DNA of 64,000 nucleotides from Syntrophomonas sp. DTU019 (GTDB lineage: Bacteria; Bacillota; Syntrophomonadia; Syntrophomonadales; Syntrophomonadaceae): contig CAJYDM010000005.1 of NCBI GenBank assembly GCA_913757435.1, forward strand, positions 186,001 to 250,000, given 5' to 3'. Numbering within the stretch: the stretch's first letter is position 1; every line of letters starts with the position of its first letter. A program made the translations under genes and the position numbers. Below, piece after piece: positions 10,128 through 27,674 of the stretch. A model generated the notes under the pieces. It was not told the origin of the DNA. It did not search any database and worked only from the letters and a program-made list of their open reading frames with translations.

Positions 10128-10967
10128 TTGATTATTGAACGACGCAAGATTTTCTACATCATATCGCTGATATTGATCTTACCGGGACTGGCCTCGCTGT
10201 TTATCAATGGGCTCAACCTGGGCATTGACTTCAAAGGCGGTTCCATCGTACAAGTGCGCATGGCAGCCGACGTAACCGCGCCCGAAGTGCGGGAAGCCTT
10301 GATTCCGGTGGGACTGGATGCCTCCGAGGTGCAGCGGAGCGCCGATAATACCTATTATATTCGCAGCCATGAACTGGACCAGGAACAAACCCGTGCTCTG
10401 CTCAATGCGCTGGAGTCCAAATTTGGAGAGGTTGAATTGCTGAGCGCTGAGAGCGTGGGTGCGACTATAGGGCGGGAGTTGAGCTTGAACGCCCTGCTGG
10501 CCTTAGGTATAGGTCTGGCTTTGATGCTGGTATATATATCCTTCCGCTTTGAATGGACCTTCGGGGTGGCGGCGGTCTTGGCCCTGGTGCACAATGTATT
10601 GGTAGTGGTCGGAGCTTTCTCCATATTTCAGTGGGAAATAAATACATTTTTCATAGCATCTATCCTGACAGTGGTGGGCTTTTCTATCAATGACACCATA
10701 GTGGTCTTCGACCGGGTCAGGGAGAACCTGCGCGGCAGCAGAAGGCCCGATTACCTTAATCTGTTGAACAAGAGCATCCTACAGGTGATAAACCGCTCCA
10801 TCAATACGGTGCTTACTGCAACTCTAGTCCTGGTAGCTTTGCTGCTTCTTGGCGGGGCCACTCTCAAGTATTTTGTAGCCGCTATGCTGATCGGCTTTGT
10901 GGTAGGTGCCTATACATCCATCTGCATAGCCAGCTCGTTATGGTATGAGATCAAAAAAGCAGCCTAA
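10128..10967 (+). CDS. secF: Protein translocase subunit SecF
   Basis: 279 residues. Partner of SecD. The N-terminus carries LNLGIDFKGGSIVQVRM, and the C-terminal membrane domain has VGFSINDTIVVFDRVREN and the conserved SINTVLTATLVL segment. Start is TTG 10128, supported by AAGGAGGGG immediately upstream. Last gene of the yajC-HD-secD-secF operon. Confidence 0.95.
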   Translation: MIIERRKIFYIISLILILPGLASLFINGLNLGIDFKGGSIVQVRMAADVTAPEVREALIPVGLDASEVQRSADNTYYIRSHELDQEQTRALLNALESKFGEVELLSAESVGATIGRELSLNALLALGIGLALMLVYISFRFEWTFGVAAVLALVHNVLVVVGAFSIFQWEINTFFIASILTVVGFSINDTIVVFDRVRENLRGSRRPDYLNLLNKSILQVINRSINTVLTATLVLVALLLLGGATLKYFVAAMLIGFVVGAYTSICIASSLWYEIKKAA

Positions 10968-10976
10968 TATATTCCT

Positions 10977-11006
10977 TTGACAGGATAAGGCCTGGTAACC
11001 TATACT
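10977..11006 (+). promoter_or_regulatory. Sigma-A-type promoter for the cation-efflux gene leader
   Basis: TTGACA at 10977-10982 and TATACT at 11001-11006 with an 18-bp spacer. It begins just 10 bp after secF and would start transcription near 11013, about 115 nt before the efflux gene. Confidence 0.65.
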
Positions 11007-11012
11007 AAAATT

Positions 11013-11076
11013 TAACAAAGTGATATTGGTACATTTGGTCAGGCCGTAGGCTGGGCTCACTGAGCAGCGGAACACC
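11013..11076 (+). promoter_or_regulatory. Candidate structured leader RNA upstream of cation-efflux gene
   Basis: The predicted 5' UTR between the promoter and the terminator hairpin is G-rich and foldable (GGCCGTAGGCTGGGC..., then ACTGAGCAG and CGGAACACCG). Together with the terminator that follows, the arrangement looks like transcription attenuation by a metal-sensing riboswitch. The local motif ACTGAGCAG recalls the NiCo (czcD) riboswitch, but the region looks too short for its full four-way junction, so the class is not assigned. Confidence 0.35.
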
Positions 11077-11113
11077 GCGGGACTTCATTCAAATATGGAG
11101 TCCCGCTTTTTCT
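11077..11113 (+). terminator. Terminator/attenuator hairpin before cation-efflux gene
   Basis: GCGGGACT (11077-11084) pairs with AGTCCCGC (11099-11106), followed by TTTTTCTT. It sits between the promoter and the ATG at 11127, so it would stop transcription before the gene unless relieved. Confidence 0.7.
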
Positions 11114-11126
11114 TACGGAGGGTGCC

Positions 11127-12017
11127 ATGGATACGCAGATAAAAACCAAAGCAGCCGTTATTTCAGTAATAAGCAATCTGTTTCTGATGACTGCCAAATT
11201 CATAGTCGGATTCCTGACCGGCTCTATAAGTGTGATTTCCGAAGCCATCCACTCCGCCAATGATCTTTTGGCTTCGTTTATTGCCCTTTTTGCAGTCAGA
11301 GAATCCTCCAAACCACCTGATGACAGGCATCCTTTCGGTCATGGCAAAATTGAAAATATTTCCGGAACCATCGAAGCACTATTAATATTTCTGGCCGCTG
11401 CCTTAATTATTAAAGAGGCGGTGGAAAAAATCAGGTTCGGCGAAGGTGTCATTGAGCCTACCTGGGGATTGATTGTGATGGGCGTGTCCGTTGTCTTAAA
11501 TCTGGGTGTCTCAGAATACTTGCTGAGGGTTGCTAAAGAACACCATTCTATTGCACTGGAAGCCGATGGCATGCATCTTCGCACCGATGTCTATACATCT
11601 CTAGGCGTTTTTGCAGGTCTTTTGCTCATTAAGGTAACCGGGCTGCAGATCATCGATCCCATCGCAGCCATGGTGGTCGCCGGTCTCATTATCAAAGCGG
11701 CTTATGATCTTACCCAAAAGGCTTTCGTTCCCCTGCTGGACACCTCGTTGGAAGATCACCACCTTGAAGCGGTGCAATGCGTCCTGGCCGAATATGAGTA
11801 CAGATATCTGGAATATCATGATTTGCGCACCCGCCGTTCTGGGCGCGAAGCCCATATCGACCTGCATCTGGTCATAGATGCCCAGGCTAGCGTACAGGAG
11901 GCCCACGACCTGTGTGATTCCATTGAGAAGTCCATCGGGGAAAGAGTACCCTTTTCATCGGTTTTGATACATGTTGAACCGAGTGGCGAAATCAAGCAAA
12001 GGCTCCTGGAGCAATGA
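11127..12017 (+). CDS. Cation diffusion facilitator (CDF) metal-efflux transporter
   Basis: 296 residues. Membrane antiporter exporting divalent metals (Zn, Co, Ni, Fe or Mn) for a proton. TM2 carries SEAIHSANDLLASF, then RHPFGHGKIENISG, and TM5 has LEADGMHLRTDVYTSLGV; these supply the transport-site His/Asp residues. The C-terminal cytoplasmic CDF dimerisation domain covers about residues 215-290. ATG with ACGGAGGG upstream. The attenuator-like leader suggests metal-dependent control; specificity cannot be read from sequence alone. Confidence 0.9.
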   Translation: MDTQIKTKAAVISVISNLFLMTAKFIVGFLTGSISVISEAIHSANDLLASFIALFAVRESSKPPDDRHPFGHGKIENISGTIEALLIFLAAALIIKEAVEKIRFGEGVIEPTWGLIVMGVSVVLNLGVSEYLLRVAKEHHSIALEADGMHLRTDVYTSLGVFAGLLLIKVTGLQIIDPIAAMVVAGLIIKAAYDLTQKAFVPLLDTSLEDHHLEAVQCVLAEYEYRYLEYHDLRTRRSGREAHIDLHLVIDAQASVQEAHDLCDSIEKSIGERVPFSSVLIHVEPSGEIKQRLLEQ

Positions 12018-25612: not shown

Positions 25613-26162
25613 TAACCGACTAAAATGACACAGGAAACGAATGACACGCGGGGACACGCGGGGATGTGAGCGACCGAGCAAGGTCGTGACATATAGTGGG
25701 TGAGAAGCCCACCGAGAAAGGACTAGCCAACCACTCGTAGCCAGCCTTGGAGCGCAACTGGCAACAGAAGCGTTTAAGCGTAGGCAGGCGAGGTAATGGG
25801 CCGAAAGCCAGAGGCTGAAGGGAATGAGCCCCGAAATGTGTGTGGATGAGGAGGCCGATGCCGTACGTCCAGCAGAAGGCAACACCTCAGCGGTCGATAG
25901 GGCGAGAACGCTGAGGCTCCTCCGGGGTCAGAGACCTTGGCACGTTACACATTGTTAAGTCACGGTAACTCGGGAGACCCTGACAGTTCTTCCGCAGGGG
26001 AGTATGGCCGACAAGCAATACAAAGCAAGGGAGCCAAAAGTCTGTCAGGGAGTCGGATTGCTGCATAGTACTGATGAACAGGGTAATGCCTGGGGAGGAA
26101 AGGCGGCAACGTATTATAGCCCTTAGTCAAGGAAACATTGTCCTACTGGAGAGGAGAAGACA

Positions 26163-27485: not shown

Positions 27486-27506
27486 GAAGGCAAATGATAA
27501 TACGAA

Positions 27507-27540
27507 GAGCCGTATGCGTTAATAGCGCACGTACGGTTCT
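27507..27540 (+). ncRNA. Group II intron domain V
   Basis: The hairpin starting GAGCCGTATGCG and ending CGCACGTACGGTTC contains the catalytic AGC triad and is the most conserved part of group II ribozymes. Confidence 0.9.
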
Positions 27541-27674
27541 GTGAGGGGTAAGGGTACAATCGTATGGAAATTAAGTACGGTTGAGCTAGTGAGACACTGC
27601 CAACCGAAAGGGGCAGAAACCGAGTAGGCTCAACCTAACCTTAATCATCTGGCGAGAGGCCCTGCCTACTCGAC

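Follow-up and report, generated by a model that had tools for sequence, protein, structure and literature searches.

The element analyzed here lies in a 64-kb stretch of DNA (hereafter the window) from a genome of 3.2 Mb (G000), whose closest named relatives, judged by its CDF gene, are Syntrophomonas species. The gene order around it, with all features below on the forward strand, is queA, tgt, yajC, an HD-domain-like ORF, secD, secF, the leader, a CDF gene, a small membrane ORF, and lysA; except for secF, CDF, and lysA, these names are what we take the genes to be from their translations. The leader is located directly 3' of secF, the stop codon of which is at 10967. The downstream gene (11127–12017) encodes a CDF-family cation efflux transporter of 296 amino acids (TIGR01297, 248.8 bits), which contains the Pfam domains Cation_efflux and ZT_dimer as well as an HD-HD transport site (H42, D46, H150, and D154). 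By sequence, its nearest solved relatives in PDB are FieF (Cd/Zn/Fe pumps) and CzrB. The NCBIfam name MntE was rejected for this protein, which scores 221.5 bits where the cut-off is 500 and has an HD-HD site. Elsewhere in the window, two group II intron pieces (25703–25937 and 27505–27674) score above the Rfam cut-offs.

A preliminary description of this DNA had proposed that a promoter, a foldable leader, an intrinsic terminator, and an RBS precede the CDF gene in an arrangement typical of riboswitches. All of these parts were located and the start at 10977 was correct, with the aptamer proper spanning 11037–11084. The promoter (10977–11006) consists of a -35 box TTGACA (10977–10982) and a -10 box TATACT (11001–11006) separated by an 18-nt spacer, and agrees with the consensus at 11 of 12 positions. 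Promoter-like sites are not rare by themselves (10 found in 4 kb vs 4.9 +/- 2.0 expected). The other three genomes of the genus (L006, L007, and L116) show the same -35/-10 pair, and 62 of the 92 compact leaders defined below have a promoter matching at least 9 of 12 positions within the 75 nt upstream, compared with 16% of mononucleotide shuffles. The terminator (11077–11106) is a stem of 12 bp with a 6-nt loop, followed by TTTTTCTT; its stem alone accounts for -20.6 kcal/mol, and its 5' arm shares with the aptamer the last part of P4', J4/1, and P1'. The RBS GGAGG (11117–11121) was read directly, and the ATG is at 11127. The whole leader folds better than its shuffles (z = -4.1; 1 of 200 shuffles was equally good). 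This excess in folding energy is owed mostly to the terminator, and the relatives were therefore examined for support of the aptamer.

The aptamer forms a conserved four-way junction of 48 nt. The 5' strand of P1 (GGUC, 11037–11040) pairs with 11081–11084 through three Watson–Crick pairs and one G-U pair. A11041 represents J1/2 and is followed by the 3-bp P2 hairpin (GGC-CGUAG-GCU, 11042–11052), J2/3 (GG, 11053–11054), the P3 hairpin (GCUC-ACU-GAGC, 11055–11065), the invariant A11066 of J3/4, and the P4 hairpin (GCGG-AACA-CCGC, 11067–11078). J4/1 (GG) and the 3' strand of P1 (GACU) occupy 11079–11084 and are also part of the 5' arm of the terminator. Within the junction, J1/2 (11040–11043) resembles J3/4 (11065–11067), both of which contain C-A-G and thus make up a pseudo-repeat. 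A 13-bit match to the Rfam family Plant_SRP at 11044–11070 was regarded as chance.

A DNA search of 61 genomes with a query of 171 bases revealed good matches before the orthologous gene, which were centered on query positions 75–152. From the fetched loci, 32 different leaders were aligned (alignment A1). Repeat leaders were left out, as were eight that were considered by eye to be chance matches of a regular expression (L004, L041, L051, L058, L084, L086, L094, and L112); L028 and L048 stayed in the alignment and were later found to carry a non-compact P1, and L255 and L277 were removed as copies of L198 and L215. Alignment of leaders of orthologous genes had been suggested in the preliminary description, and the leader proved to be conserved across genera. 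The consensus fold comprises P1 (GUC/GAC), J1/2 (A), P2 (GGC/GCY), J2/3 (GG), P3 (GCUC/GAGC-like), J3/4 (A), P4 (GCGG/CCGC-like), and J4/1 (GG). In these 32 leaders, 97.3% of 480 cells are paired and 6 of the 15 pairs have changed on both sides (23 cells), a number of two-sided pairs that was matched by 2 of 500 shuffles; none of the 500 matched the covariation score. When the partner was shifted by 1–3 columns, pairing was only 27–46%, and RNAalifold arrived unprompted at the same four helices. Covariation says little about P1 because this helix hardly varies (columns 15–16/81–82 are invariant in the 32 rows). Among 74 model-fitted matches, in an alignment that leans to the structure, 8 of 15 pairs have changed on both sides. 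The aptamer is better supported by conservation than by folding energy.

Two covariance models were used to analyze the distribution of this RNA. Since the first (R1) includes the window, a second (R2) was built for independence, without the four members of the window's genus; both models and the larger alignments A2 and A3 were fitted to the proposed structure, which favors that structure. R2 detected the aptamer in the 64-kb window with 56.3 bits (E = 1.6e-13; next match, 14.0 bits), and R1 found a single site in the whole genome (62.5 bits; next, 16.4). At E<=0.01, R1 has a site in 52 of 63 genomes of the order (55 places, 51 of which have a compact P1); the compact form occurs in 49 of these genomes, and G029, G068, and G070 have a non-compact site only. 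In a sample of the phylum, 81 of 398 genomes have a match, canonical NiCo RNAs being among these. Of 80 named CDF loci, R2 matched 13, including those of Syntrophomonas, Syntrophomonadaceae, a Desulfosporosinus, and a Desulfitobacteriaceae bin, and found nothing at the other 67, which are mostly Geobacter-type or from other phyla. Sorted by the 5' strand of P1, the 139 rows (A2 and A3) fell into 92 compact ones with a final GUC, 12 intermediate ones with a final AUC, and 35 others. Downstream of the 92 compact leaders, 82 CDF-like ORFs were detected; three other leaders run off their contigs, four precede P-type ATPase-like ORFs (one confirmed by Pfam), and three precede something else (L228, L264, and L273, the last of which may be a false match). 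The junction letters are nearly constant in the compact leaders: J3/4 is A in 92/92, J4/1 is GG in 91/92, and J2/3 is GG in 84/92.

We compared this fold with the NiCo (czcD) riboswitch class (RF02683; structure 4RUM), the description of which rests here on Rfam output and on passages of the literature. Both share a P1–P4 four-way junction with the junction letters CA, GG+G, A, and GG, a GGGAC at the 3' end, a terminator that overlaps the 3' end of the aptamer, and a CDF or P-type ATPase gene downstream. On the other hand, the aptamer in the window has 48 nt versus 96 positions in the Rfam model; its P1 has 3–4 continuous pairs (G-U-C/G-A-C), whereas the canonical P1 is longer and has an internal loop (GAGC/GAC; acuG-Ag-C/G-A-Cagu in the Rfam consensus); and its P2 has 3 pairs and a short loop where the canonical P2 has a long arm (GAUG/UGGG). 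Canonical NiCo RNAs carry ACUGAGCAGGC across P1-J1/2-P2, and the corresponding match in the window is GGTCAGGC at 11037–11044 together with GGGAC at 11079–11083. Homologs, covariation, and an identical junction core support the idea of a minimal NiCo variant with riboswitch geometry, but not the clue that had led to it: ACTGAGCAG lies in the loop and 3' strand of P3, J3/4, and P4 (11060–11068), and its likeness to NiCo is a positional coincidence, for which the pseudo-repeat of J1/2 and J3/4 may be the source.

An Rfam search had been proposed in the preliminary description. RF02683 did not report the window site at the gathering cut-off (37 bits for RF02683, which the window element does not reach) or, in a search of 401 nt, at E<=10, and neither search revealed any Rfam riboswitch. 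For compact relatives, RF02683 gave end-to-end matches with the core letters aligned at 5 of 6 loci (32.3, 31.9, 30.4, 24.1, and 19.3 bits), and compact relatives in the order reach at most 35.3 bits. Only 6 of the 63 genomes of the order pass the RF02683 cut-off, none at a compact site; four of the passing places are R1 matches with a non-compact P1, and two are separate sites without an R1 match at E<=0.01. Across 20 sources with compact sites, none reaches the cut-off of any Rfam family at those sites. The Rfam model misses the compact form, despite the same core letters, because the internal loop is absent from P1 and the long arm from P2. Four RF02683 matches elsewhere in the source genome (13.7–18.1 bits) were considered chance, as 7 of 14 control genomes score alike. 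The yybP-ykoY Mn2+ riboswitch (presumably RF00080) is also a metal-sensing leader before cation exporters; no match to it was found at the window leader or at the compact relatives scanned with Rfam. In a literature search that mostly covered papers outside subscription journals, no title pointed to a compact NiCo form.

Outside the order, some of the 92 compact leaders have longer P2 loops of up to 40 nt, and at least one of them (L258 in G134) passes the RF02683 cut-off at 48.6 bits, so that compact and canonical forms grade into each other. Intermediates with an AUC/GAUC P1 also occur between the two. The strong canonical NiCo RNAs L207 (G213) and L208 (G048), with about 62 bits at about 1501–1596, are followed by a small membrane-like ORF of 125–139 amino acids and a kinase-like ORF, with no metal pump. 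Another canonical NiCo RNA, L232 (G073:C424, 1652–1742; 80 bits), precedes a 204-aa ORF that appears methyltransferase-like from a motif; a Pfam search with its first 60 residues found nothing. The same genome, G073, also carries a compact element before a CDF gene (L221).

In 88 of the 91 compact leaders with enough sequence, three or more bases of GGGAC belong to an intrinsic terminator, compared with 107 of 455 controls in which the downstream sequence was shuffled. The same overlap was observed in 40 of the 47 other leaders, which are mostly canonical (37/235 when shuffled). A first version of this test, in which the stem could not start within P4, gave 74/92; the widened version gave 88/92. 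Since GGGAC of the aptamer also starts the terminator stem, a metal-dependent ON switch is predicted. A divalent transition metal bound by the junction guanines (11053–11055 and 11079–11080) would stabilize the P1–P4 fold, which would withhold GGGAC from the terminator, so that the polymerase could read through and the pump would be made; without metal, GGGAC would pair with the GUCCC in the terminator, which would end transcription. When the RNA ends at 11084, the aptamer fold lies no more than 1.0 kcal/mol from the metal-free optimum; with the terminator stem completed (11106), it is 18.5 kcal/mol worse. With a gap of about 18 kcal/mol between the unbound aptamer and the terminator in the full transcript, switching must be kinetic, and any metal would need to act while transcription is under way. 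For canonical NiCo RNAs, passages of two papers likewise describe a metal that prevents an overlapping terminator (PMC7917058, PMC7689651).

Taken together, the leader is very probably a compact version of the NiCo (czcD) metal riboswitch, with transcription attenuation as its means of controlling the CDF efflux gene; metal binding, the direction of the switch, and the identity of the metal (Ni/Co or Fe(II)) are the parts that we infer. Against this reading stand the silence of RF02683 at the window, the lack of the class's internal loop in P1, and that of its long arm in P2. The element is predicted to work like NiCo RNAs and is not filed as a member of RF02683, because it stays below the cut-off and differs in P1 and P2.

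Regarding the metal, cooperative binding of Ni2+/Co2+ (or Fe2+) is a trait of the NiCo class. Passages of PMC7689651, which cite Xu and Cotruvo 2020, present Ni/Co versus Fe(II) as the disputed ligand of the class, and name G46, G47, G87, and G88 as Co(II)-site ligands in 4RUM and G45 as needed for site III. By position, J2/3 with G11055 (11053–11055) and the GG of J4/1 (11079–11080) would correspond to G45–G47 and G87/G88, respectively. The first junction G is replaced by A or C in 8 of the 92 compact leaders (L164, L166, L219, L220, L029, L221, L031, and L246) versus 0 of the 47 others; the altered base is probably the equivalent of G45 and linked to the metal site. Seven of these eight leaders have a full-length CDF, all seven of which keep HD-HD. 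Behind all compact leaders, 75 of 77 full-length CDFs have HD-HD (two have HDED), and behind the others, 31 of 32. With HD-HD nearly everywhere, the pump does not reveal the metal.

A possible but rather unlikely alternative is that the compact RNA is derived from NiCo but senses another cation, such as Fe(II), Zn, or Mn, the short P1 and P2 and the altered junctions having shifted its affinity or selectivity. The disputed ligand of the class, the possibility raised in passages of the literature that variants with other specificities exist (PMC10043782, PMC7689651), the presence of both forms together in G064, G073, G048, and G213, the eight leaders without the first G of GGG, and the proximity of the window CDF to FieF are all consistent with this idea. 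However, nearly all compact leaders retain four of the five guanines presumed to make up the metal sites, and HD-HD is found in 106 of the 109 full-length CDFs, whichever type of leader precedes them, so that nothing in the gene points to another metal. A still more speculative version, which we consider doubtful, is that the compact RNAs make up a metal-sensing subclass of their own with distinct selectivity, in which the eight leaders might have lost the G45-linked site and might respond to another ion, or respond without three-site cooperativity. If so, it would provide a natural metal-specificity series built on one RNA scaffold.

It is quite improbable that the leader is only a constitutive terminator, marking the end of secDF next to a leaky promoter without sensing any ligand. 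Its position directly after the secF stop and the large share of the terminator in the folding energy would fit, but a promoter precedes the terminator, and the 48-nt core, unneeded for termination, is nevertheless conserved and covarying in different genera and upstream of CDF genes from different subfamilies. Convergence of an unrelated metal riboswitch on the NiCo junction is hardly credible: the Rfam NiCo model misses the window and the architecture of P1 and P2 differs, yet relatives align end to end with RF02683 at up to 35 bits, GAUC-P1 intermediates exist, and the gene context is the same. The other option in the preliminary description, a new leader that responds to metal but has no relation to NiCo, is not needed. 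We give equally little credence to an attenuator that responds to a protein or small peptide instead of a metal: the geometry of leader and terminator also fits protein-dependent antitermination, but conservation is concentrated in junction letters and base-paired positions, which is the pattern of a metal aptamer, rather than in an ORF or an exposed site for a protein.

For the NiCo family as a whole, the compact riboswitch variant implies that the class is under-counted, as Rfam passes 6 of the 63 genomes of the order, compared with compact sites in 49 of 63 by the compact-trained model. The metal-sensing core would shrink to about 48 nt, and the variants found in nature at the proposed metal-linked base offer a test of selectivity. 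With such a small core and such natural variants, both the sensed metal and the bases that set selectivity become directly testable.
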